Of a stretch of 64,000 bases of DNA, positions 597-40,511 are shown piece by piece. Position numbers and translations under genes: made by a program. Below the pieces are notes generated by a model, which saw only the letters and a list, made by a program, of their open reading frames with translations, did no database searches and was not told where the DNA came from. Location: IMG/VR virus record IMGVR_UViG_3300025141_014429, positions 1 through 64,000 of that record; one strand, given 5' to 3'. The stretch's first letter is position 1, and each line of letters starts with the position of its first letter. The DNA is from a virus.

Positions 597-910
597 TGAT
601 CGATCCAAATCTATGTTTCTCAGCGACTAATGAAATAATGAATATTGCCAAGTCAATAGTCATGACTTTCAAGCCGGGTTCAGACTATGTAACTGAATCA
701 GATCTTTATAAATATATTGCTGATGAAATGAGTAAGATTGAAAATAGTTGTAGTTCTGACGTAAGAGAAGGCTACACACGACATATTCTAGGCAAGTTTC
801 CAATCTGGATATCAGATGAAGCTTATAAGCGGATACGTCTGACAGAAGTTAAGTCAACACTTTCGAAGCTTAGAGGTGCTGCCAAGTCACACGTGCAAAA
901 TATCACATAA
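596..910 (+). CDS. Hypothetical protein, 104 aa
   Basis: This mixed alpha/beta-looking soluble protein has no motif I recognise. It starts at an ATG overlapping the upstream stop (TAATG) with GGAGGTGAGT as ribosome site, so translation is probably coupled to the preceding gene. Its last codons overlap the CGTGCAAA element of the next promoter (892-921), showing how tightly the promoter array is packed. Confidence 0.8.
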   Translation: MIDPNLCFSATNEIMNIAKSIVMTFKPGSDYVTESDLYKYIADEMSKIENSCSSDVREGYTRHILGKFPIWISDEAYKRIRLTEVKSTLSKLRGAAKSHVQNIT

Positions 911-921
911 CCTATTATAAT
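892..921 (+). promoter_or_regulatory. Array promoter 1 (CGTGCAAA-N16-TATAAT)
   Basis: CGTGCAAA at 892-899, 16 bp, then TATAAT at 916-921. The leader carries ACCAACCAA and AAGGAG before the gene at 958. It overlaps the 3' end of the preceding gene. Confidence 0.85.
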
Positions 922-957
922 ATAAACACATACCAACCAACTAATAAGGAGTTTATT

Positions 958-1155: not shown

Positions 1156-1157
1156 AA

Positions 1158-1244
1158 CTCCGTGGTTGGTGTTTACAGACGGCTAGAAGGTCGTCGGAGA
1201 GAGAGCTGGTTACTCTCGGGTATGGGTGGGCAAAAAACATCAAC
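1158..1244 (+). ncRNA. Candidate structured RNA A (pseudoknot-like, anti-leader sequence)
   Basis: CTCCG 1158-1162 can pair with CGGAG 1195-1199. GTTGGTGTTT 1165-1174 can pair with AAACATCAAC 1235-1244 (one G-U). The pairings interlock in a-b-a'-b' order. Two small hairpins sit inside: GACG/CGTC at 1178-1195 and GAGAG/CTCTC at 1201-1217. The 5' strand reads AACTCC-G-TGGTTGG-TGTTT, the antisense of the consensus array leader (AAACA..CCAACCA..GGAGTT). No U-run follows, so it may be a 3' UTR element rather than a free small RNA. Seen in sequence; role inferred. Confidence 0.45.
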
Positions 1245-1245
1245 A

Positions 1246-1275
1246 CGTGCAAAAACTGCGGAAGCATATTATAAT
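1246..1275 (+). promoter_or_regulatory. Array promoter 2
   Basis: CGTGCAAA 1246-1253, 16 bp, TATAAT 1270-1275. The leader has TCAACCAATAAGGAG. It drives the gene at 1306. Confidence 0.85.
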
Positions 1276-4283: not shown

Positions 4284-4310
4284 ATAAGTGTAACCAACCA
4301 AGGAGCAATC

Positions 4311-8736: not shown

Positions 8737-8763
8737 ATAGGGGCAACCAACCAAGGAGTTATT

Positions 8764-10944: not shown

Positions 10945-11292
10945 ATGAAATACTTTTCAATCGACTATCGTTCACCCCCTTCTGGAATGGGACAAATCAT
11001 TGACACCAAAAAACCTGAGAAGGTTGGAGATCAATATAACTTCATTCTTATTGACTACGGTACTGATCCTCATGAAGATCCCAGCTATGTCATGACAAAA
11101 TACTTCTATTCAGAACAAGCAGCAGAAGAAGGATGGGCAGGAGCAGTTCTTCCCCAAATATTTCAATTCCTTCGAGACTCCAAAGTTACACATGTCCATG
11201 ACAGTGAGCTATCATATGAAGAGGAAGGGGCAGACGAGGATGGGTATTTCCTATTAGATCGCTGGATCGAAATTATGAATTCATATTTATAG
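10945..11292 (+). CDS. Hypothetical protein, 115 aa
   Basis: Start at 10945 after CAAAGGATATATT. Acidic soluble protein, aromatic-rich, no motif recognised. Followed by a small gene with a GGAGACAAA ribosome site 9 bases later. Confidence 0.75.
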   Translation: MKYFSIDYRSPPSGMGQIIDTKKPEKVGDQYNFILIDYGTDPHEDPSYVMTKYFYSEQAAEEGWAGAVLPQIFQFLRDSKVTHVHDSELSYEEEGADEDGYFLLDRWIEIMNSYL

Positions 11293-11301
11293 GAGACAAA
11301 A

Positions 11302-11454
11302 ATGGATGTCAGTGCACTTACGCTCAAAGAGTTGGTAGACCTAGGTCTGATATCTCAGGAGATGATCATACGAATTCAAACCCGTGCTGATCGTCAACTT
11401 GAGAGGATGGCACAAAACCATAAGTTGAGCAATTACATAAAACGAAAAAAATAA
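11302..11454 (+). CDS. Small protein, isolated LxELVxLG module, 50 aa
   Basis: SALTLKELVDLGLISQEMII and a basic tail (IQTRADRQLERM, KRKK) match the N-terminal module of the proteins at 10401 and 14265 without the C-terminal domain. It may act as a partner or competitor of the longer paralogues. TAGGAGACAAAA ribosome site. Confidence 0.68.
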   Translation: MDVSALTLKELVDLGLISQEMIIRIQTRADRQLERMAQNHKLSNYIKRKK

Positions 11455-11469
11455 ACTTTTTTTGAAGTT

Positions 11470-11521
11470 GGTCATTTTTTGACCGGTTTCCAATACGGAG
11501 CTCAAAATAATATGGTATAAT
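11470..11521 (+). promoter_or_regulatory. Sigma-A promoter with GGTCA/TGACC inverted repeat
   Basis: The inverted repeat GGTCA 11470-11474 / TGACC 11480-11484 is followed by a -10 element TATAAT at 11516-11521 within ATATGGTATAATATATC. There is no CGTGCAAA box. The same arrangement, base for base over much of its length, lies upstream of the paralogous sigma gene on the minus strand (17771-17822). The leader carries ACCAACCAACAAGGAG. Distinct promoter class, probably controlled at the repeat. Confidence 0.65.
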
Positions 11522-11552
11522 ATATCTATACCAACCAACAAGGAGTTTATTT

Positions 11553-12017
11553 ATGAATATCAACATTAATGAATATATCAAACTAGTTCACCATATCGCT
11601 CACAAATACCGATGGGCAGGAGCCGCTCATGAGGACTTGGTCAGTGCTGGGATAGAGGGACTAGTTGAGGCTAAGGAGAGATTTGACCCTGAAATGGGGA
11701 ACAAATACATTACTTATGCACATTGGTGGGTCCGAGCTTATATCCAAAAAGCTGTCAATTCTCACATCAAAAATAATCATAAATCATTGAATCAAGAGGA
11801 TAGCCTAGGGCGTCAGGGAATAGATAAGGTTGCTGCTGAATATGAAGCTGATACCGAATCATTGATGGCACCTTATATTGAAAGACTCTTAGCTGTATTA
11901 GCTCTATCTGAGCGTGTTATTATTTCAAAAAGATTTGATTTAAAAGGTCCGATACCCACCAAAAGAGAAGAGGTCCTTGAGGAAGCCCGATCTGAGCTAT
12001 CAGCATTGAAGGTATAA
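11553..12017 (+). CDS. Region-2-only sigma factor A (gp55-like), 154 aa
   Basis: Residues about 20-70 form sigma-70 region 2: EDLVSAGIEGLVEAKERFDP, then YITYAHWWVRAYIQKAV, which is the -10 recognition and melting helix with its conserved aromatics. The C-terminus keeps the first helix of region 4 (LALSERVIISKRFDL), but the helix-turn-helix that would follow is replaced by a short helix. T4 late sigma gp55 is likewise region 2 without region 4. Paralogue at 17258-17740; an orphan region 4 protein lies at 43065-43295. It probably directs host RNA polymerase to one phage promoter class. Confidence 0.85.
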   Translation: MNININEYIKLVHHIAHKYRWAGAAHEDLVSAGIEGLVEAKERFDPEMGNKYITYAHWWVRAYIQKAVNSHIKNNHKSLNQEDSLGRQGIDKVAAEYEADTESLMAPYIERLLAVLALSERVIISKRFDLKGPIPTKREEVLEEARSELSALKV

Positions 12018-12053
12018 AACCCCGATGGTTAGCTAAAAAAAGATAAATAAATA

Positions 12054-12083
12054 CGTGTAAAACTCAATATTTAGAAGTATAAT
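12054..12083 (+). promoter_or_regulatory. Array promoter 20 (CGTGTAAA variant)
   Basis: CGTGTAAA 12054-12061, 16 bp, TATAAT 12078-12083. A long A/C-rich leader precedes the gene at 12141. Just upstream, AACCCCGATGGTTAG (12018-12032) resembles the anti-leader loop of RNA B. Confidence 0.82.
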
Positions 12084-12140
12084 ATAACCATATAATAAAA
12101 CAACCCAACAAATCCAAATCAACATACCAAGGAAACAAAT

Positions 12141-13019
12141 ATGACAAATTTTTTAGAAGGAAGCAAGACTGTTAGACCCGAGACACCTATCATTGACAGT
12201 GTAGCAGAATTTACGCCTGATGCACTTAATCAAGACGGTATTTGGGCACATGCTTTCGATGAGTCAAACGACATTGAGATACCAGCGTACTTAGACAATC
12301 CTATCAAAACAGGACTAAGTTATATGGACTACATTCTTGGTGACGCAGGGTTCTATCCAACACAGTGTACCATCTTAACAGGTGACCCTGGATGTGGAAA
12401 GACTACTATGGCTCTCGAGATGGCATCTGCTATGCGTGGGCTCGGCTCTAATGTCGCATTTGCTTCCTGTGAGATGCGAAGAGAGATGGTCGCTAAATTT
12501 CAAAAGCGGCTCAAAGCAGAACATCCGATCAAAGTCATTACAGACAAGATCGTGCGAACTGCTAGAGGTTCTACCCGTGTTCCCTTTGCATCTCACGTTC
12601 CAACTCTCATTGAGACATGCGAGCGAATCCGTGCGCAAGATCCTGATAAGCCGTTCGTCCTCATTATTGATTCCCTTCAGGAGTTAGATGATGGACACTT
12701 CGGGACCGGGCGCAAGACATCGAAGACAGCATATCGTGCGCTGGACCGACTCAACAGTTACTGCAAGCAGACAGAATGTACTTTGATAGTCATTGGTCAG
12801 GTAACAAAGTCGGGTCAAATGGCCGGTAGCAATGATATCAAGCATCTCATCGATGCACATCTTCATCTATCAGTAGAACAAAAGGATGAAGAGATGCGAG
12901 GTGCTAGAATACTCCAAGCAACAAAGAATAGGTTTGCTGGATGCGGTCAGCTGGTGTTCCTCCAGATGAAGTCCGAAGGATTGCAGGAAATCGCACGTCT
13001 CAAGGAGAGCTCTTTATAA
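12141..13019 (+). CDS. RadA/Sms-like RecA-fold ATPase, 292 aa
   Basis: Walker A GDPGCGKT at residues 81-88, Walker B FVLIIDS at 172-178, and a KNRFA sequence at 262-266 matching the KNRFG motif diagnostic of RadA. It lacks both the N-terminal zinc finger and the C-terminal Lon-like domain of bacterial RadA, so it is a minimal core. Known RadA proteins are branch-migration helicases in recombination. By analogy this protein would help phage recombination-dependent replication. DnaB- or RecA-type relatives are less likely given KNRF. Confidence 0.85.
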   Translation: MTNFLEGSKTVRPETPIIDSVAEFTPDALNQDGIWAHAFDESNDIEIPAYLDNPIKTGLSYMDYILGDAGFYPTQCTILTGDPGCGKTTMALEMASAMRGLGSNVAFASCEMRREMVAKFQKRLKAEHPIKVITDKIVRTARGSTRVPFASHVPTLIETCERIRAQDPDKPFVLIIDSLQELDDGHFGTGRKTSKTAYRALDRLNSYCKQTECTLIVIGQVTKSGQMAGSNDIKHLIDAHLHLSVEQKDEEMRGARILQATKNRFAGCGQLVFLQMKSEGLQEIARLKESSL

Positions 13020-13030
13020 GTTATTAGATG

Positions 13031-13116
13031 TGTGTCGTTCATTGGTTGGTTACCTTTATGGGCGGTAGGTAAGAACGACACAAACTCCGATGGTTGGACC
13101 TACCGCCCACTTTTTT
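13031..13116 (+). ncRNA. Candidate RNA B: perfect pseudoknot with anti-leader loops and U-run
   Basis: Stem 1: TGTGTCGTTC 13031-13040 with GAACGACACA 13073-13082. Stem 2: TGGGCGGTAGGT 13059-13070 with ACCTACCGCCCA 13098-13109. The order 1-2-1'-2' is a classical H-type pseudoknot, followed by TTTTTT 13111-13116. Loop ATTGGTTGGT 13041-13050 is the exact complement of ACCAACCAAT. Loop AACTCCGATGGTTGG 13083-13097 is complementary to CCAACCA and to the SD GGAGTT of the array leaders. Located in the 3' UTR of the RadA-like gene, one base before the tRNA. Confidence 0.7.
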
Positions 13117-13117
13117 A

Positions 13118-13191
13118 GCACCAATAGCTCAAATGGAAAGAGCATCCGCCTTCTAAGCGGACGGTTGCAGGTTCGAGTCCTGCTTGGTGTA
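13118..13191 (+). tRNA. tRNA-Arg (anticodon UCU)
   Basis: Full cloverleaf: acceptor GCACCAA/TTGGTGT (one G-U), D stem GCTC/GAGC, anticodon stem TCCGC/GCGGA with loop CTTCTAA, T stem GCAGG/CCTGC with loop TTCGAGT, discriminator A13191. Anticodon TCT at 13152-13154 reads AGA, the dominant arginine codon of the AT-rich genes to the right. CCA is not encoded. It lies between two pseudoknot RNAs and has no promoter of its own in between. Confidence 0.95.
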
Positions 13192-13204
13192 CAGACTTAA
13201 ACAT

Positions 13205-13278
13205 ACGAATCGATTCTGGGTTCGGGTGCTATGGTAGGATCGGTTCGTTCCTTGGTTGACCATAGCACCCTTTTTTTT
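13205..13278 (+). ncRNA. Candidate RNA C: second pseudoknot with anti-SD loop and U-run
   Basis: Stem 1: ACGAATCGAT 13205-13214 with ATCGGTTCGT 13239-13248 (one G-U). Stem 2: GGGTGCTATGGT 13224-13235 with ACCATAGCACCC 13259-13270, immediately followed by eight Ts. Same 1-2-1'-2' topology and nearly the same stem lengths as RNA B, but unrelated stem sequences. Loop TCCTTGGTTG 13249-13258 is the exact complement of CAACCAAGGA, the SD region of leaders at promoters 6, 13 and 24 and of sigma B. Starts 13 bases after the tRNA. Confidence 0.7.
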
Positions 13279-13279
13279 G

Positions 13280-13309
13280 CGTGTAACTCTCGTGATAACA
13301 AAGTATAAT
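13280..13309 (+). promoter_or_regulatory. Array promoter 21 (CGTGTAAC variant)
   Basis: CGTGTAAC 13280-13287 starts one base after the U-run of RNA C; 16 bp; TATAAT 13304-13309. It drives the gene at 13334. Confidence 0.78.
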
Positions 13310-13333
13310 AACAACACATCCAACGGAGGCTCT

Positions 13334-13519
13334 ATGAAAAGAGGTACACATGTAACAATCACACAACACGAAACTGAAAGTGTGGTGGGTCAACAAGGTA
13401 TTATAACAGCTGCACATTGTGTGACAGGATCTGTGAGATATCATGTCAAAACTGAAACAGCTACATATTATTGTTCAGTCACTCAGCTCAAATTAAGTAA
13501 CGCAATTGCGTGCAAATAA
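13334..13519 (+). CDS. Small beta-rich protein, 61 aa
   Basis: Start at 13334 after AACGGAGGCTCT, one of the strongest ribosome sites here. The MKRGTHVTITQHETES opening and GQQGIITAA resemble a small SH3/KOW-type barrel. Its last codons contain the next promoter's CGTGCAAA. Function unknown. Confidence 0.7.
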   Translation: MKRGTHVTITQHETESVVGQQGIITAAHCVTGSVRYHVKTETATYYCSVTQLKLSNAIACK

Positions 13520-13538
13520 ACATTAAACCACGTATAAT
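13509..13538 (+). promoter_or_regulatory. Array promoter 22
   Basis: CGTGCAAA 13509-13516, 16 bp, TATAAT 13533-13538. It overlaps the end of the preceding gene and drives 13570. Confidence 0.85.
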
Positions 13539-13569
13539 AGATACACACCCAAACAATCAAGGAAATATT

Positions 13570-14169
13570 ATGACCCATACAAAACAACAAGTTCTTGACC
13601 TTCTTCAAGACCCTGACTATGTCGGAGCAGCAATCATTCTTATCGGACAAAATCAGACTCAGGATGAATTGAGAACCAAGCATACCCATAATCTTAATGG
13701 AGAAGGATTCTCAGCCGCATATGCAAAGGTTGGTACAAGGTTTTATGAGTTTGTTACAGGTATTCAAACCTCAACTGGTAAGAAGAAGTGGCAATCCCGA
13801 TCCCTCGCTCACCCAAAAGCTGATCAGATATTTCGTCGTTATATCAACAATCGTGGCTGTAACAATGCTATTGACTATGCTCGTGATATTGCAGCTCTCC
13901 ATTGGAAACAACTAGGTGCTATGTTTGAAGTTGGTTTTACTGTTCCATCATATGACGTTCAAGTTGGAGAACCTGAAGCTGCACCAGCTAAACAAGAACC
14001 AGCACGTATATTGTTGGCTTGCCAGTTTATCAAAGTCAGTGGTAAGGCCGTCCAAGTCAAGATGAATGGGAATGGCAAAAAGATTTGGTTACCAAAGTCT
14101 CAAGTCCAATCAACAGAAGATGGATTGAGTATACCAACATGGTTGGCTTCCAACAAAGGACTCCTGTAA
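13570..14169 (+). CDS. Hypothetical protein, 199 aa
   Basis: Start at 13570 behind CAAGGAAATATT. Two parts are separated by a Pro/Ala/Glu linker (GEPEAAPAKQEPAR). The N-terminal domain of about 135 residues has several Trp and basic residues. The C-terminal domain of about 55 residues (ILLACQFIKVSGKAVQVKM then KKIWLPKSQV) looks like a small beta barrel. Unknown function; the linker and basic faces would fit a nucleic-acid-associated protein. Confidence 0.75.
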   Translation: MTHTKQQVLDLLQDPDYVGAAIILIGQNQTQDELRTKHTHNLNGEGFSAAYAKVGTRFYEFVTGIQTSTGKKKWQSRSLAHPKADQIFRRYINNRGCNNAIDYARDIAALHWKQLGAMFEVGFTVPSYDVQVGEPEAAPAKQEPARILLACQFIKVSGKAVQVKMNGNGKKIWLPKSQVQSTEDGLSIPTWLASNKGLL

Positions 14170-14194
14170 GGGGTCCAACTTCATCTTTCATTTT

Positions 14195-14224
14195 CGTGCA
14201 AAACTCTAATCTAACCCGTATAAT
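14195..14224 (+). promoter_or_regulatory. Array promoter 23
   Basis: CGTGCAAA 14195-14202, 16 bp, TATAAT 14219-14224. The leader CAACAACCAAGGAG is an exact match for the loop of RNA C. Listed elsewhere in this annotation as promoter 24 of the leader comparison. It drives the gene at 14265. Confidence 0.86.
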
Positions 14225-14264
14225 ATAAACACATAATCCAATAACAACAACCAAGGAGAATATT

Positions 14265-14678
14265 ATGTCATTCAATCAAAAAACCCTTCAAGAGCTTGTA
14301 GATTCAGGCGTCATTACAGCAGCTGATGTTGCTAAGTTTGAAAAACGTCTAGCTCGTTTAGATAAGAAAGCAGCTAAGGAAGCTAGAGCAGCTGAAGTCC
14401 TTACCAAAGTTGGAGATGCTTTTCATGAGCTGACCAAGGAAGGTAATCCAACAAAGCATCGTGCAATTTGGGAAAAAGTTGGTCGTGAAGCTCATAGCCG
14501 TGACGAAGTCCTAGATGCTCTTAGAACTCTACGAGATAACGGAGAAGCCCGTACCTATAAGCTTAGTAACAATAACTTTCAAATCTTTTGGGCTCAACCT
14601 CTACCTGTTGTAGAAGAAGCTGATGAAGATGCAGATGCAGAAGCTCTTGCTGTTATCCCTGGTGTTGATGAGGTTTAG
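14265..14678 (+). CDS. Helical protein with LQELVDSG module, 137 aa
   Basis: TLQELVDSGVITAADVAKFEKRL matches the N-terminal module of the proteins at 10401 and 11302. A Lys/Ala-rich helix, a winged-helix-like part (VLDALRTLRDNGEARTYKL) and an acidic tail (EEADEDADAEAL) follow. Architecture like a small DNA-binding regulator with an acidic C-terminal arm. Function inferred from layout only. Confidence 0.78.
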   Translation: MSFNQKTLQELVDSGVITAADVAKFEKRLARLDKKAAKEARAAEVLTKVGDAFHELTKEGNPTKHRAIWEKVGREAHSRDEVLDALRTLRDNGEARTYKLSNNNFQIFWAQPLPVVEEADEDADAEALAVIPGVDEV

Positions 14679-14686
14679 GCCTCATC
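14667..14686 (+). terminator. Hairpin overlapping stop codon
   Basis: GATGAGG 14667-14673 pairs with CCTCATC 14680-14686 around the TAG stop. No T-run follows, so it may protect the 3' end rather than terminate. Confidence 0.3.
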
Positions 14687-14692
14687 ACCTAG

Positions 14693-14722
14693 CGTGTAAA
14701 CATCGAAGTTCAGTTGTATAAT
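14693..14722 (+). promoter_or_regulatory. Array promoter 24 (CGTGTAAA variant)
   Basis: CGTGTAAA 14693-14700, 16 bp, TATAAT 14717-14722. Short leader ACATCAAGGAGATAAC. It drives 14743 and 14932. Confidence 0.84.
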
Positions 14723-14742
14723 ATAAACATCAAGGAGATAAC

Positions 14743-14922
14743 ATGACAATAACACTTAAATCACTTTTCACTGCCTTCATCTCTCTGGTTATGCCAGGAG
14801 TGGGCCAACTCTTCTATGGAGAACTAGGTTGGGCACTATTTTGGTTTGTAACAGCAATCATCACAGGTGGACTTACAATATGGCCATCAGCAATTCACTG
14901 TCTTTTTTTAGCAAACAAATAG
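14743..14922 (+). CDS. TM2-domain-like membrane peptide, 59 aa
   Basis: Two hydrophobic segments. The first ends in MPGVGQLFYGELGWALFWF, matching the PGxGhxYxG turn of TM2-domain proteins; the second is FVTAIITGGLTIWP. It would sit in the inner membrane with a short loop. Perfect CAAGGAGATAAC ribosome site and its own promoter. A role in membrane take-over or exclusion is speculative. Confidence 0.75.
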   Translation: MTITLKSLFTAFISLVMPGVGQLFYGELGWALFWFVTAIITGGLTIWPSAIHCLFLANK

Positions 14923-14931
14923 GAGTATCAC

Positions 14932-15213
14932 ATGAAACTAACAGATCTATCCGCAGCATTAGCTAATCTAACACCGCTAGAACGTACACAAATCGAAGCA
15001 GCAAAGAGTAGCTATATGTTGCATGTTGCTATAGTAACATCTGAATATATTAAGCAAAAGGAAGAGCTGGAAAATTTTGAATTGTTCACCGATCCAGAAG
15101 ATGCCATATCTCAGCAAACACTAGTACTAATCCGTAAGCAGGTCGCAGAGATGGAGATGAAGGTATCACAACTAGCATGTGAGCTGGAGAATCATTTCAA
15201 TATATCAGCGTAA
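14932..15213 (+). CDS. Helical/coiled-coil protein, 93 aa
   Basis: Heptad-like helices dominate (LVLIRKQVAEMEMKVSQLA). Predicted oligomer. Ribosome site TAGGAGTATCAC, 9 bases after the TM2-like gene, suggesting co-expression. Unknown function. Confidence 0.75.
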   Translation: MKLTDLSAALANLTPLERTQIEAAKSSYMLHVAIVTSEYIKQKEELENFELFTDPEDAISQQTLVLIRKQVAEMEMKVSQLACELENHFNISA

Positions 15214-17740: not shown

Positions 17741-17770
17741 ATTATACTCCTTGGTTGTTTGTATAGATAT

Positions 17771-17822
17771 ATTATACCATATTATTTTTAAGTCTGTATC
17801 CGGAACCGGTCAAAAAATGACC
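17771..17822 (-). promoter_or_regulatory. Sigma-B promoter, duplicate of the sigma-A promoter
   Basis: On the minus strand, GGTCA/TGACC inverted repeat (17822-17808), then ATACxG, then AATATGGTATAATATATC with the -10 at 17776-17771. Matches the sigma-A promoter over about 90 bp. No CGTGCAAA box. Confidence 0.65.
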
Positions 17823-18181: not shown

Positions 18182-19564
18182 ATGAAGATTACAAGAAGAC
18201 AACTTAGACAAATCATTGAATCAAGTGTTATCAAGCGAGGCGACGATTACGTCGCTCCCGTTGAAGCCCCACTCACAGATCCGCGAGATTATGATTTTGA
18301 CCTATCAGATGAAAACAAAGAAAAACTCCATGCATTAGCAGGATCAGATCCGAATTCAGGCGGACCGGCTCAGGCAGACAGCTTAGCTGACACCTTAGAT
18401 TTCCCTAGTTCAGGTCGTTTCGGTGCAGATACGCTAAGCATGCAAACAAAAATGTATGACATGGGCTTGGATTTAATTAATGATCCGGAAGTCGATCAAC
18501 TACTAGATCGTGCAATTGAACTCTCTGTTAAAGATAATTATTCAGAACACATAACTGATGATCTCATTTACGTTCTAAATGCAGGTTATAAGTATCCAGA
18601 AGGGCCGGGTGGTTTTCAGTTATTTTTAAATGGTGATCCGGATTTTAATGATGAAAATCTGGATACTGAATGGGGAGGGCTAAATACTACAGTTTTTCAT
18701 CCAGGTCGGCCGGCGATTACCTCTGATCTGATTACCTTTGTCATGAGAAAAATGTACTTCCTAATTGGGATAAAACTCACCGGTATTCAAGATTCAATGC
18801 GCAGGGATGGTACCTCAGCTTTAGAATTGGTCGATGACTTCAGCTCCGATAGAAATGTAGAAGAACTTGCTCCGGAATACTTGAAGCAACGTTTTGAAAA
18901 GTTTGAGAAAGTCAAAGAATTATTTAAAAAAAGAACATCGAAGGCAAGATATCCTGCGGTTGCTCAGCATGTATACGACAAGTTGATGAAGCCAATGTAC
19001 GAGATATTCACCTCAGCTCATAAAGCTTATAAGCATGTTGACCCAGAGATAGACATGAGCCAAATCAAAGAGAGTAAGTTAGGAGACAACATGAAGCTAA
19101 ACAGAAAATCACTGCGCCGACTCATTATGGAAGAAATCGAAATTCTTGCAGAAGCGCCAGAAAACTCGCCCTTTCCTTATCGCGCAAAGGTCATGCTCGG
19201 TCTAGTACCTGGTGTGGACGTTTTACCAACTAGTGCAGTTGAAGAGCCATGGAATTCAGATGATGATGAACATCGAGCACTCTATGTCGCGCTACAAGAT
19301 CTAGGTGACATTGTCATGCCCGGATCACAAAACAGCACAGGTCAAGTTCAACTCAGGCAGGAAAAACTACGAGGTGGTGAGCGCTTACCCTTTCTTATGG
19401 ATAAGCTTAACATTGCAAAGAGTATCATCATGGATTCTGTCGATCCTTCTACAGAAAGAAAATGGTTTGTTAGAGAGGAAGACGCTCTAGTCCACTTTAT
19501 TACAGAACTAGGGCGTGTACTAACTAGAGAATCAGGCGGTCCGGACTTTAGCGTACTACAGTAG
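18182..19564 (+). CDS. Virion-type protein with two capsid-targeting-like peptides, 460 aa
   Basis: N-terminus MKITRRQLRQIIESS is the first of the shared targeting peptides. At residue 304 a second one appears in frame, MKLNRKSLRRLIMEE, encoded at 19091 just behind TTAGGAGACAAC, a strong internal ribosome site. Either two genes have fused in frame, or a 157-aa product is also made from the internal start. Both halves are acidic and lack domains I recognise. By analogy with T4, cutting after IIE and LIME would release two mature head-internal proteins. Confidence 0.8.
   Translation: MKITRRQLRQIIESSVIKRGDDYVAPVEAPLTDPRDYDFDLSDENKEKLHALAGSDPNSGGPAQADSLADTLDFPSSGRFGADTLSMQTKMYDMGLDLINDPEVDQLLDRAIELSVKDNYSEHITDDLIYVLNAGYKYPEGPGGFQLFLNGDPDFNDENLDTEWGGLNTTVFHPGRPAITSDLITFVMRKMYFLIGIKLTGIQDSMRRDGTSALELVDDFSSDRNVEELAPEYLKQRFEKFEKVKELFKKRTSKARYPAVAQHVYDKLMKPMYEIFTSAHKAYKHVDPEIDMSQIKESKLGDNMKLNRKSLRRLIMEEIEILAEAPENSPFPYRAKVMLGLVPGVDVLPTSAVEEPWNSDDDEHRALYVALQDLGDIVMPGSQNSTGQVQLRQEKLRGGERLPFLMDKLNIAKSIIMDSVDPSTERKWFVREEDALVHFITELGRVLTRESGGPDFSVLQ
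19091..19564 (+). CDS. Alternative internal product, 157 aa
   Basis: In-frame ATG with AGGAGACAAC at ideal spacing and a complete targeting peptide immediately after it. It was probably an independent gene originally. Nested in the 460-aa frame above. Confidence 0.55.
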   Translation: MKLNRKSLRRLIMEEIEILAEAPENSPFPYRAKVMLGLVPGVDVLPTSAVEEPWNSDDDEHRALYVALQDLGDIVMPGSQNSTGQVQLRQEKLRGGERLPFLMDKLNIAKSIIMDSVDPSTERKWFVREEDALVHFITELGRVLTRESGGPDFSVLQ

Positions 19565-36011: not shown

Positions 36012-37190
36012 ATGTCAATATTTAAAGAACATAAAACTATAGCAGATAGATCAGCTACAGATAGAAGAAGACATAAAAAGAAAATAGAAAAAGCTATCAA
36101 GGAAGGTATTCATGATATTATTGCTGAAGAGAATATTATTGGAAAAGATGGCAAGAAGAAAATAAAAATTCCTGTAAGAGGTATTAAAGAATTCAGGTTT
36201 ATATACAATGATGAGCCGGGAAATGGCCAAAAAAAGGTAGGATCAGCACAAGGTAAAAATATATCAAAAGGACAAAAAATATCTAGTGGTAAACAAAAGA
36301 AGGGTAAAGGTAAAAAAACAGATAAACCGGGTAATGAATCAGGTGATGAATACTATGAGGTAGAAATTTCTTTAGAAGAATTAGCAAATTATCTTTTTGA
36401 TGATTTAGACTTGCCTGAATTGGAAAAGAAGAATTTCACTAATATTGTTAGTGAAAAGTATAAAAGAAAAGGTTACAGACCTCAAGGTATAAGGCCTAGA
36501 TTATCAAAAAAAGAGACAATTAAAAATAAAATTCGTAGAAAGAAAAAAGCAATAAAGACAGGCACATATGATCCTGAGTCTGAAGAAAGATTCACATTTC
36601 ACGAAAGTGATCTAAAATACAAACACATTGCAGTTACACAAAAAGAAGTTACAAATGCTGTGATATTTTTTATCATGGATGTCTCAGGATCAATGGGGAA
36701 AACTAAGAAATTTCTTGCAAGAAGCTTTTTCTTCTTATTGTATCAATTCTTAAGACATAGATATCAAAAAGTAGAAATTGTTTTTATATCACACACAACA
36801 GAAGCATGGGAAGTTGATGAGGAACAATTCTTTTCTAGGGGCTCATCAGGAGGTACATTCATAAGTTCAGGAATAGAAAGATGCTTAGAGATAATAACAC
36901 AGCGATACTCGCCTGAAAATTGGAACATATATAGTTTTCACTGCAGTGATGGTGATAACTGGTCAGAAGATAATAAAAAAGCATTAGATTTAACTGATCA
37001 ACTAAAAGAAATGTGTCAATTATGTGCATATATCCAAATACTGGGTAGGAATAGTTTCGGTGCCGGAGACGGTAATAAGATGGCAGATGTATATGATCAA
37101 ATGCAGGATAAGAAATTTAAAGTTTCTAAAATAAACAATAAGAAAGATGTTTGGCCTGAATTTGCTAAGTTATTTGGAGGTAAATTATGA
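36012..37190 (+). CDS. yeaH: YeaH/YhbH-family (DUF444) VWA protein, 392 aa
   Basis: Basic N-terminal region, then a low-complexity Lys/Gly linker and a C-terminal von Willebrand A domain with MIDAS sequence IMDVSGSMG (about residue 224) and later FHCSDGDNW. Length and layout match YeaH (E. coli) and YhbH (Bacillus). In bacteria it acts with kinase YeaG/PrkA in stress and nitrogen-starvation responses and sporulation. Here it heads a three-gene set: yeaH, ycgB (4-base overlap), yeaG. Confidence 0.9.
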   Translation: MSIFKEHKTIADRSATDRRRHKKKIEKAIKEGIHDIIAEENIIGKDGKKKIKIPVRGIKEFRFIYNDEPGNGQKKVGSAQGKNISKGQKISSGKQKKGKGKKTDKPGNESGDEYYEVEISLEELANYLFDDLDLPELEKKNFTNIVSEKYKRKGYRPQGIRPRLSKKETIKNKIRRKKKAIKTGTYDPESEERFTFHESDLKYKHIAVTQKEVTNAVIFFIMDVSGSMGKTKKFLARSFFFLLYQFLRHRYQKVEIVFISHTTEAWEVDEEQFFSRGSSGGTFISSGIERCLEIITQRYSPENWNIYSFHCSDGDNWSEDNKKALDLTDQLKEMCQLCAYIQILGRNSFGAGDGNKMADVYDQMQDKKFKVSKINNKKDVWPEFAKLFGGKL

Positions 37191-38509
37191 CATGGAAGAT
37201 AAATGATCTTACTAGTTGGGATGATAAAATCATAGAAATTGCTAAAAAATACAATTTAGACTGGTATGATATCAACTATGAGATATGTGATTATTACGAA
37301 ATGATGGGTCATATGTCATATCACGGCATGCCAAGTCATTACAATCACTGGAGTTATGGAAAGTCATTCGAACAAACACGACAACTTTACAATTTAGGAG
37401 CACAAGGTCTACCATACGAATTAATTATAAATTCAGACCCATCTATAGCTTATCTCATGAGACAAAATGATTTATATCTTCAGATATTAATTATGGCACA
37501 CTGTATTGGTCATAGTGATTTTTTTAAAAATAATCGCTGTTTTCAGCATACAGATGCAAAAAATATTGTAGCTAAATTTAGAAATGCAAGAAATAGAATT
37601 CAAAAATATTCCGAAGATCCCAGTATAGGAATTGATGTTGTTGAAGAATTTATTGATTGTTTACATAGTATAAGATTCCAAACATGCAGACATAATATTC
37701 CACGTAAATCAAAAAATCAAATCAAACGTGATCTGATTAAAAAATACAACAAGGATAAAAACAACCAATTGATTAAGAAAGTATCCTTGAATAGATTAGA
37801 ATCATCACAACTATTAGAAGATGATCATGATTTGCTTTCATTTTTACTAGAATACGGAACACATTTTGAAGATTGGCAACTAGATATAATTAATATAGTT
37901 AGAGAAGACAGCATGTATTTTATTCCTCAAATAAAGACAAAGATACTTAATGAGGGATGGGCTTCTTTTTGGCATTATAAAATTCTTCATGAGTTGGAAT
38001 TGCCACAAGAATATCATATTCCTTTTTTGAAAATGCATAATGCAGTAGTCAGACCTCATATAGGTGGAATCAATCCTTATCATGTAGGCTTTTATCTTTT
38101 TCAAAAAATTGAAAAAGAAATGGGATTAGATGAATGTTTTCTAATACGAGAAGTGCACGACGATGAATCAGCGATAAGAATGTATTTAGATGAAGATGAT
38201 TTTAGAAAATTAAACTTGTTTACATATTCAAAAGATAAAAATAATGATACTTTTATCGATGAAGTATCAGATCATGATGACTGGAAAGTTGTTAGAAATA
38301 CACTGCTGCAGAACACCGGTGTTAATTCAATCCCAAGAATATATGCACATGATATAAAGAAAGATAAGTCATTGGTTCTTAAGCACGATCATGACGGAAG
38401 AGATCTAGACTTAGAATATGCTGATAAAGTTATTGAAAACGTTCGACATCTCTGGCCAGAAGGCGCAGTTCTTTTTACTGTAATAGAAGATGAGATATGG
38501 GAAATATAG
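37187..38509 (+). CDS. ycgB: SpoVR/YcgB-family protein, 440 aa
   Basis: Family signatures include YGMPSHYNHWSYGKSF near residue 50, MAHCIGHSDFF, LLNEGWASFWHYKILHELE-type text and NPYHVGFYLFQKIEKEMG. Full-length relative to YcgB/SpoVR (about 450-510 aa). Function in bacteria is still unclear, but the gene is nearly always beside yeaG/yeaH. ATGA overlap with yeaH shows translational coupling. Confidence 0.92.
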   Translation: MTWKINDLTSWDDKIIEIAKKYNLDWYDINYEICDYYEMMGHMSYHGMPSHYNHWSYGKSFEQTRQLYNLGAQGLPYELIINSDPSIAYLMRQNDLYLQILIMAHCIGHSDFFKNNRCFQHTDAKNIVAKFRNARNRIQKYSEDPSIGIDVVEEFIDCLHSIRFQTCRHNIPRKSKNQIKRDLIKKYNKDKNNQLIKKVSLNRLESSQLLEDDHDLLSFLLEYGTHFEDWQLDIINIVREDSMYFIPQIKTKILNEGWASFWHYKILHELELPQEYHIPFLKMHNAVVRPHIGGINPYHVGFYLFQKIEKEMGLDECFLIREVHDDESAIRMYLDEDDFRKLNLFTYSKDKNNDTFIDEVSDHDDWKVVRNTLLQNTGVNSIPRIYAHDIKKDKSLVLKHDHDGRDLDLEYADKVIENVRHLWPEGAVLFTVIEDEIWEI

Positions 38510-38576
38510 GGTAAACTTTTTTTAATATATAGTTATAATAGTATATGACAGCAATTAATTTCATAGGAAAATAAAA

Positions 38577-40511
38577 ATGGCCAACAAAGATTTTTTAAAA
38601 ATTATCAAAAAGCAGAGATCAAAAAGCAAGAAAAAGAAATTTCAAGGTACTCTTTTAGAGTATTTAGATATCATACAGGAAGATCCTAGCGCAGTTCAAT
38701 TAGCTCATAGAAGACTTTATGATGTAATTAATAATAAAGGTTGCAAAACAGTTGATATTGATGACGATGGTTACAGAGGCATCTTTAATGGTGATAAGAT
38801 TAGAACATATGATTATTTTAAAGAAGAATTCTTTGGAATGGAACTCATCATCAATAAGCTTATGAGGTATATGAAATCAGCTGCACTTAAAGGTGAAGAA
38901 TCTAGACAAGTACTTTTACTTATGGGGCCGGTAGGTGCAGGTAAATCAGCACTAACAGAGCATGTTAAAAGAGCACTTGAACTAGCAGAACCTGCATATC
39001 ATTTAGATGGTTGTCCAATTCGTGAAGAACCTCTTCATTTAATTCCTAGAAGTTTAAGACCTGAATTTGAAAAAATACTTGGTGTTAAAATTGAAGGTGA
39101 TCTATGCCCTATTTGTCGTCATAGGCTTATCAATGATTTTAATGGAGAGTATGAAAAATTTCCAGTTAAACAATCATCATTTTCACAAAGAGGACGAAGA
39201 GGTATTGCAACAGTGCCGCCTATGGATGCAAATTCACAGGATGTATCTGTTTTAATCGGAACTGAAGATATTAGTAAACTAGATCTTTATCCAGAAGATG
39301 ATCCTAGAGTATTATCGCTGAATGGTGCATTCAATGTGGGTAATAGAGGAATAGTAGAATTTGTTGAGGTATTTAAAAATGAAATTGAGTTTTTGCATAC
39401 TATGTTAACAGCAACTCAAGAAAAGCGTGTACCTTCGCCAGGTAAAAACGATATGATCTATTTTGATGGAGTCATATTATCCCATTGTAATGAAGCAGAG
39501 TGGAACAGATTTAAAGGTGAACACACGAATGAGGCTATTTTAGACAGGGTCATGAGAATAGAAGTACCTTACGTGCTAGAACTAGATCAAGAAATGAAAA
39601 TTTATGAAAAGATGATAAATAGATCTGATTTCAAAGGTGCACATATTGCACCGCATACTATTAAAATTGCATCGATGTTCTCAATAATGTCACGACTTAA
39701 AACGTCAAACAAGTGTGATATCCTTACTAAAATGAAAATATATAATGGTGAAGATATTATAGAAAAAGGAAAAGTAAGAAAAGTAGACATTAGAGACTTA
39801 AAAGATGAAGCAAGAAAAGAAGGGATGACGGGTATATCTACAAGATTTATTATGAAAGCCCTAGATGCAGCATTATCTGATTCTGACAGGAATATGATCA
39901 CTCCAATAAGTGTAATGGAAAGTCTAAGTAAACAAGTCAAAGAACAAATAATTGCTGAAGATGTTAAGGAAACTTACTTAGAAATAATCCAAAAGATAAT
40001 AAGGGAAGAATACCTTCGAATTCTAGAAACTGAAATAGCTAAAGCATTTATCACTGCTTACGAAGAACAAGCACAATCATTGTTTGAATCTTATCTTGAT
40101 AATGCAGAGTGTTACACAACAGGTGCTAACGTCAAGGATAAGATAACAAGAGAAGAACGTGAACCTGATGAAAAATTCATGAAGTCTATAGAAGAAATGA
40201 TAGGTGTTGTAGGTTCTGCACGTGACGGGTTCAGATCAGATGTTACTTCATATATGTTTTCTAAGATGAGAAGAGGAGAAACTATTGATTTTAAATCGTA
40301 TGGACCACTCAGAGAAGCAATCGAAGAATATATGATAATGTCAGTTAAAGATATATCTAGAATTGTAACTAGATCTAGATCAAGAGATGATGATCAAAAG
40401 AAAAAGTATAGTGAAATGGTCAGTACGTTGATTGAAGAGTATGGGTATGATGAATGGTCAGCTGAAGAAATACTGACTTATGCTTCAAATAACCTCTGGA
40501 GAGACTCATAA
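38577..40511 (+). CDS. yeaG: PrkA/YeaG serine kinase-AAA protein, 644 aa
   Basis: Walker A GPVGAGKS near residue 120 within a AAA+ domain, a central C-x2-C (LCPICRHR), and a C-terminal PrkA-type kinase domain. Length matches YeaG/PrkA (about 640 aa). In bacteria this kinase controls stress gene expression. A phage copy could keep starved hosts productive. Weak TATAAT at 38534 and GAAAATAAAA before the start; 67-base gap to ycgB. Confidence 0.92.
   Translation: MANKDFLKIIKKQRSKSKKKKFQGTLLEYLDIIQEDPSAVQLAHRRLYDVINNKGCKTVDIDDDGYRGIFNGDKIRTYDYFKEEFFGMELIINKLMRYMKSAALKGEESRQVLLLMGPVGAGKSALTEHVKRALELAEPAYHLDGCPIREEPLHLIPRSLRPEFEKILGVKIEGDLCPICRHRLINDFNGEYEKFPVKQSSFSQRGRRGIATVPPMDANSQDVSVLIGTEDISKLDLYPEDDPRVLSLNGAFNVGNRGIVEFVEVFKNEIEFLHTMLTATQEKRVPSPGKNDMIYFDGVILSHCNEAEWNRFKGEHTNEAILDRVMRIEVPYVLELDQEMKIYEKMINRSDFKGAHIAPHTIKIASMFSIMSRLKTSNKCDILTKMKIYNGEDIIEKGKVRKVDIRDLKDEARKEGMTGISTRFIMKALDAALSDSDRNMITPISVMESLSKQVKEQIIAEDVKETYLEIIQKIIREEYLRILETEIAKAFITAYEEQAQSLFESYLDNAECYTTGANVKDKITREEREPDEKFMKSIEEMIGVVGSARDGFRSDVTSYMFSKMRRGETIDFKSYGPLREAIEEYMIMSVKDISRIVTRSRSRDDDQKKKYSEMVSTLIEEYGYDEWSAEEILTYASNNLWRDS

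Follow-up and report, generated by a model that had tools for sequence, protein, structure and literature searches.

Predicted pseudoknot RNAs beside a phage tRNA gene bear loops complementary to a shared early leader, suggesting an RNA brake on early gene expression

Several described systems come close to the locus reported here. According to passages of PMC12197685, the c4 antisense RNA of phages P1 and P7 blocks translation through loops complementary to sequences around the ribosome binding site. In T4, RegA shuts off translation of about 30 early mRNAs at the initiation region and RegB cuts the GGAG of the SD in early mRNAs, as set out in passages of PMC3014915. The T4 RNAs of bands C and D, which are small, stable, made by a virulent phage and given as of unknown function, are named in passages of PMC4933390; these passages also describe sRNA1 and sRNA2 of PAK_P3, abundant RNAs of about 100 bases for which translational silencing has been proposed. 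In E. coli, a tRNA transcript gives off its 3' trailer as the regulatory RNA 3'ETS-leuZ (part of PMC8166272).

The window analysed here is a stretch of 64,000 nucleotides opening a virus record of 123,028 bases (G000). The G000 terminase is at most 44% identical to those of named phages (Microcystis and Flavobacterium phages), and many IMG/VR contigs are closer to it. The first ~17.7 kb of the window hold small genes in an early-type region, "early" being a label taken from gene layout. Most of these genes are each preceded by an individual promoter, CGTGYAAA-N15-KTATAATATAA, which has 28 matches in the window at up to 3 mismatches against 0.16 expected. Nearly all early genes also have in common a CA-rich leader of the pattern CCAACCAA..AGGAG, exemplified before a start codon by TAAACACACCAACCAAAGGAG; the pattern marking the regulon is CGTGCAAA-N15-TATAATATAA. 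The early regions supplying leaders were delimited by eye. The exact sequence CAACCAAGGA occurs, RNA C aside, at four places in the window, including the leader of the minus-strand sigma B gene, as had been claimed in the original prediction. The relevant features are:

4285..4310, plus strand: early leader with exact CAACCAAGGA (match 4295-4304), target example
8738..8763, plus strand: early leader with exact CAACCAAGGA (match 8748-8757), target example
14226..14264, plus strand: early leader with exact CAACCAAGGA (match 14248-14257), target example
17741..17769, minus strand: sigma B gene leader with exact CAACCAAGGA (match 17748-17757), target example
892..925, plus strand: early-type promoter (promoter match) of the gene bearing RNA B in its 3' UTR
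12054..12087, plus strand: early-type promoter (promoter match) of the RadA/KaiC-like gene
12141..13019, plus strand: gene for a RadA/KaiC-like ATPase, adjoining the RNA locus on its upstream side

The promoter at 12054..12087 is that of the RadA/KaiC-like gene and hence probably of RNA A too; homologues of this gene adjoin candidate RNAs in four other phages. We consider it fairly probable that RNAs A, B and C are trans-acting antisense RNAs of the phage, directed at the common 5' leader of its own early mRNAs and damping their translation.

The two sigma-like genes have in common a promoter-upstream sequence (GACCGGTTTCC.. / GACCGGTTCCGG.., at 11515-11521 on the plus strand and 17771-17777 on the minus strand) which sets them apart from the remaining early genes with their CGTGCAAA class. 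Elsewhere in the window, between 18182 and 33811, many unrelated proteins, their genes starting near 18182, 20237, 21051, 23133, 26711, 28074, 28992 and 33071, have a similar short N-terminal motif (MKITRRQLRQII or MRLTRRQLRQLI, for instance), possibly, as a guess, a packaging or targeting signal. At 36012-40511, three adjacent genes resemble, judged by eye, the bacterial set of VWA protein, SpoVR-like protein and PrkA-like kinase (YeaH, YcgB, YeaG).

Two of the three elements lie at the tRNA gene, with the stems and loops read from the sequence:

13031..13116, plus strand: RNA A, an H-type pseudoknot that ends in U6 and lies in the RadA/KaiC-like gene's 3' UTR
13031-13040: RNA A stem a, TGTGTCGTTC
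13041-13058: RNA A L1, ATTGGTTGGTTACCTTTA, antisense to leaders
13059-13070: RNA A stem b, TGGGCGGTAGGT, followed by L2 (AA)
13073-13082: RNA A a', GAACGACACA
13083-13097: RNA A L3, AACTCCGATGGTTGG, antisense to leaders
13098-13109: RNA A b', ACCTACCGCCCA, followed by C and U6
13118..13192, plus strand: tRNA-Arg (TCT), between RNA A and RNA C
13205..13278, plus strand: RNA C, an H-type pseudoknot that ends in U8, putative 3' trailer of the tRNA
13205-13214: RNA C stem a, ACGAATCGAT
between stems a and b: RNA C L1, TCTGGGTTC
13224-13235: RNA C stem b, GGGTGCTATGGT, followed by L2 (AGG)
13239-13248: RNA C a', ATCGGTTCGT
13249-13258: RNA C L3, TCCTTGGTTG, antisense to leader and SD
13259-13270: RNA C b', ACCATAGCACCC, followed by U8 (13271-13278)

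Both predicted structures have the two stems in a-b-a'-b' order of an H-type pseudoknot, a fold that nested folding is unable to display, with stem energies of -14.3 and -23.8 kcal/mol for RNA A and -11.6 and -21.8 kcal/mol for RNA C. RNA C had been described beforehand as a pseudoknot of this order ending in a U-run, with stems near-identical to those of RNA A in length and unrelated in sequence; the sequence reading and a scan score of 59 bear this out, and the stems are of 10 and 12 bp in both RNAs. The further claim of a two-RNA set at the tRNA holds in that RNA A and RNA C flank tRNA-Arg; the number does not stand, as a minimum of three elements exists and relatives differ in which ones they have. 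That L3 of RNA A is also antisense to leaders goes beyond what had been claimed. Just past the first sigma gene, AACCCCGATGGTTAG (12018-12040) resembles this L3 and is a possible remnant of a further element.

In order to evaluate how rare such structures are, a uniform pseudoknot scan was run on both strands of 224 stretches (2,538,994 bases), with overlapping or duplicate loci and L275-L278 set apart. RNA C scored 59 and RNA A 57; apart from these, only a single element each from G034 and G036 reached at least 57. The next-best score in these 2.54 Mb was 46, and the maximum in three dinucleotide-shuffle sets (6.6 Mb) was 45. The structure of RNA A and RNA C is far beyond chance. All four pseudoknots scoring at least 57 adjoin a tRNA and bear anti-leader loops: three begin 5 to 12 nt 3' of a tRNA (13205 in G000, 17967 in G034, 46144 in G036), and RNA A ends just ahead of tRNA-Arg. 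In G000, G034 and G036, the only three carriers in the scan, a pseudoknot directly follows a tRNA and may be co-transcribed with it. The pseudoknot was absent from the 25 terminase relatives scanned (of 31 long ones), which share the structural genes of G000 and do not have its early region.

At the Rfam thresholds, the tRNA alone passes in the window, and neither RNA A nor RNA C reaches that of any family; a riboswitch or other known RNA class, considered as a candidate, is without Rfam support. As to Hfq- or ProQ-dependent sRNAs, a class defined by chaperone binding, the two RNAs do have a U-tail. Pseudoknotted RNAs occur in toxin-antitoxin, abortive-infection and anti-defence systems, and the elements could be the RNA partner of such a system. 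We regard this as highly improbable: no toxin-like family was found among eight window proteins scanned, no Rfam family besides the tRNA was found, and the match to the leaders would be left unexplained.

G034 (IMGVR_UViG_3300029319_009305, 107,885 bases) and G036 (IMGVR_UViG_3300006802_000087, 75,823 bases) were found by a promoter scan and a promoter-plus-leader scan, and not by way of the RNAs. The early genes they have in common with the window are 36-70% identical at the protein level, and these genes include the one for the RadA/KaiC-like ATPase that precedes the tRNA-RNA locus (45% identity in G034, 43% in G036). Their pseudoknots, each with a U-run, have an S1 of 9-10 bp, an S2 of 13-14 bp and an L3 of about 10-14 nt. 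All their stems are unlike those of G000, whereas L3 reads CCTTGGTTTGG and TAAAACTCCTTGGTT against TCCTTGGTTG in RNA C. Replacement of the stems with retention of the loop is what is expected where selection acts on the structure and the loop but not on the sequence of the stems. Loss of the loop or stems in relatives, which the original prediction had named as counting against it, is not what these phages display: they keep the build and the kind of loop, with different stems. Across the pseudoknots, the recurring anti-leader or anti-SD loop sequences are TCCTTGGTTG, CCTTGGTTTGG, AACTCCTTGGTT and AACTCCGATGGTTGG.

In G039, the 3' UTR of the RadA-like gene is without a pseudoknot and by eye holds a hairpin chain with CTGTGGTTGGT, ACTCCTTGGGTGGG and CGTGGTTGGT; G037 has a weaker candidate at the same place, 3' of its RadA-like gene. 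Evidence from these two counts for less, since the stretches were picked for the position of RNA A. Single early proteins used as queries for close relatives found nothing, alignments of the RadA-like and 141-aa proteins returned G034 only, and the exact RNA C core had no match in viral contigs. Three other features were seen in the relatives: a hairpin (GATATAACCG..CGGTTATATC) with U7 and an internal CTCCTC stretch between tRNA-Arg and tRNA-Met of G036 (L258, 6076-6150); GTATCTCGCGCTACGC-type repeats behind the RadA-like gene in G036 (L259, 5060-5160) and G037 (L262, minus strand, ~1440-1300); and a tmRNA gene in G034 (L192, 717-1192; Rfam RF00023, 97 bits), which is unusual for a phage.

The complementarity of loops and leaders was evaluated as the mean duplex energy between each loop, delimited by hand, and the early leaders of the phage that carries it, compared to 300 shuffles of the loop. 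RNA B gave the strongest value (mean -17.7, z -8.1), and L3 of RNA A (-14.0, z -6.2), L3 of RNA C (-11.9, z -4.5) and L1 of RNA A (-11.5, z -3.8) were likewise well below their shuffles. Similar values were obtained in the relatives for the G034 copy of RNA B (-17.0, z -6.4), L3 of G036 (-11.9, z -6.2) and the middle loop of G039 (-14.3, z -5.2). Scores were weak for L3 and L1 of G034 (z -2.1 and -2.4), L1 of G036 (z -2.6) and the outer loops of G039 (z -2.4 each). L1 of RNA C had no complementarity to the leaders (z -0.2), and the hairpin loop of G037 did not exceed its shuffles (z -0.4; 91 of 300 shuffles). The elements were also ranked, on 12 sampled leaders or all if fewer, among the 16-nt windows that their genome offers once start regions are masked. 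Equally good windows numbered 3 for RNA A, 0 for RNA B and 2 for RNA C among 41,201 in G000; 20 for the pseudoknot and 0 for the RNA B copy among 35,030 in G034; 13 for the pseudoknot among 23,390 in G036; 0 among 18,187 for the G039 element; and 2 among 14,224 for that of G037. The argument that topology, anti-SD loop and tRNA position do not coincide by chance is supported by the same build in two distant phages and by pairing well beyond shuffled and genome-wide backgrounds.

A second approach assumed no RNA and counted, per 25-nt window with start regions masked, the early leaders sharing an 8-nt perfect complement. Among 207,892 positions of G000, the best two were 1151 (RNA B) and 13029 (RNA A), with 14 of 28 leaders each, and RNA C came sixth (9 of 28). 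The RNA B copy was fourth-equal in G034 (12 of 24 leaders), where the pseudoknot fell outside the top nine; in G036, both pseudoknot and RNA B were outside the top sites. Several top antisense matches in G036 and G037 were the antisense of the leaders themselves, hence the masking, and matches of at least 10 nt (109 sites in G000) were mostly noise and were set aside. On the plus strand of the early region, TTGGTTG is confined to RNA A (at 13042), RNA C (at 13252) and position 17751, the last being the antisense of the sigma B leader.

With pairing predicted at -8 kcal/mol or better, and the SD counted as covered when at least 3 of its bases are paired, L3 of RNA C would pair with 26 of 28 leaders, each time over the SD. 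L3 of G036 would do so in all of 27 leaders, and L3 of G034 in 20 of 24, again with the SD covered in every paired one. Predicted pairing of RNA A L3 (27 of 28) and RNA B (28 of 28) lies over the SD in 11 and 12 leaders respectively. L1 of RNA A is predicted to pair with 23 of 28 leaders just upstream of the SD and over it in 1, and this free SD in 22 of 23 leaders is what would be expected if the RNAs activated or protected the mRNAs, by stabilising them or steering ribosomes or a phage protein. Since L3 of RNA C and of G036 cover the SD in every paired leader, such a role is judged improbable, and repression is preferred. In the pseudoknot, L3 spans the groove, and a 10 bp pairing may need the knot to open.

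The fit of the loops to the leaders of G034, G036, G037 and G039 is about as good as to those of their own phage, and so gives no sign of phage-specific co-evolution. This would suit superinfection exclusion, in which the RNAs are directed not at the phage's own genes but at related phages that enter the cell with the same leader, whose early mRNAs they block. Yet the phage's own early mRNAs would be struck too, and RNA A and RNA B stand behind early-type promoters, not late ones. Superinfection exclusion is accordingly thought unlikely, although it is, with plain termination, one of the two chief rivals of a brake on the phage's own early genes.

The third element, found by the 8-mer scan, lies apart from the tRNA:

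1156..1248, plus strand: RNA B, structured element in an early gene 3' UTR
1157-1169: RNA B anti-leader arm, ACTCCGTGGTTGG
1201-1217: RNA B covarying hairpin

It is flanked by a stop codon (1152-1154) and the next promoter (1246), and has copies in G034 (34866) and G036 (54774, 57167, 60947 and a weak one at 69016). The 13-nt arm ACTCCGTGGTTGG, nearly the same as L3 of RNA A, is identical in all five aligned copies, and the remainder varies. The hairpin (GAGAG/CTCTC, CATAG/CTATG, CACAG/CTGTG) pairs in every copy, with both sides changed in two of five pairs; a proposed closing stem shifts register, with 69% of cells paired. The arm is able to pair with the element's own 3' end, which counts against a free arm as antisense action would have it. 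Beyond the five training rows, which it recovers by construction, a model search gave a sixth match that is weak (22.8 bits, E 0.05) as well as a partial one. The G036 copy passes no Rfam family threshold, and bacterial genomes searched with the hairpin pattern gave no match. Three matches of the arm in bacterial genomes look like chance, with weak model scores and neither leaders nor pseudoknots nearby.

RNA B also bears on the second chief rival, that RNA A and RNA C are merely unusual terminators or 3' stabilisers of a gene and a tRNA, with incidental loops. Both lie at transcript ends, and stem b with the U-run is terminator-like in each; the loop exceeds 20 nt, where an intrinsic terminator has a short one, and a standard terminator scan of 11000-15000 returned none. 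Against this reading, stem a and a particular loop are both dispensable for termination, G034 and G036 retain the loop despite the change of all stems, loop-leader pairing is far above shuffles, and in RNA B the same arm occurs with no U-run. We therefore hold this explanation to be unlikely as well.

Retention of the anti-leader loops while the rest changes suggests, from comparison of sequences, an RNA brake on early gene expression. We infer expression, processing, in vivo pairing, repression and timing of RNAs A, B and C as follows. The three RNAs would arise from the same early promoter class as their targets, RNA A and RNA B as 3' ends of early-gene transcripts (promoters 12054 and 892) and RNA C as the 3' trailer of the tRNA transcript, freed upon tRNA excision. 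In RNA A and RNA C, the two long stems and the U-tail would stabilise the RNA and end transcription. In 23 to 28 of the 28 leaders, the loops would find a partner in ACCAACCAA, in the AAGGAG next to it or in both, and pairing over or next to the SD would keep the ribosome off. As the RNAs would accumulate along with the early mRNAs, early translation would become self-limiting. More tentatively, with somewhat less than an even chance, a whole phage group may run its early shut-off by RNA in place of RegA/RegB-like proteins: one shared leader would be read by fast-changing scaffold RNAs (tRNA pseudoknots, the 3' UTR RNA B, the G039 hairpin chains) with a complementary loop, so that one short sequence controls 20 to 28 genes.

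RNAs A and C are placed among the phage antisense RNAs, as a new form outside the named families, because the tRNA alone passes Rfam thresholds; in the open-licence PMC literature, no report was found of a regulon-wide antisense system of this sort. As in c4, the loops of RNAs A, B and C are predicted to be complementary to the ribosome-binding regions of their targets, whereas c4 has one target (ant), and the passages of PMC12197685 report no pseudoknot, shared leader regulon or tRNA-trailer position. T4 rnaC/rnaD lie directly 3' of tRNA-Arg (L275 sequence) and, unlike RNA A and RNA C, have no strong pseudoknot with a U-run (best scan score 28). PAK_P3 sRNA2 resembles the tRNA-adjacent RNAs in lying between two tRNAs; the PAK_P3 sRNAs are nevertheless late, and passages of PMC4933390 propose that they match single genes or the T-psi-C loops of tRNAs, not a leader regulon. 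3'ETS-leuZ is, in part of PMC8166272, a chromosomal RNA acting as a sponge of sRNAs, whereas the targets proposed here are mRNA leaders. The scheme would give a testable function to stable tRNA-adjacent RNAs of virulent phages (T4 band C/D, PAK_P3 sRNA2) and would show RNA scaffolds changing beyond recognition while the guide loop stays. Phage antisense RNAs, as far as the cited passages describe them, have one target mRNA or a small number of them; in the present scheme, the standardised leader would let a single loop sequence reach an entire regulon. RegA and RegB are proteins (passages of PMC3014915), whereas the agent proposed here is RNA reading the shared leader: regulon-wide control by a loop RNA would, if true, do the job that T4 gives to proteins.
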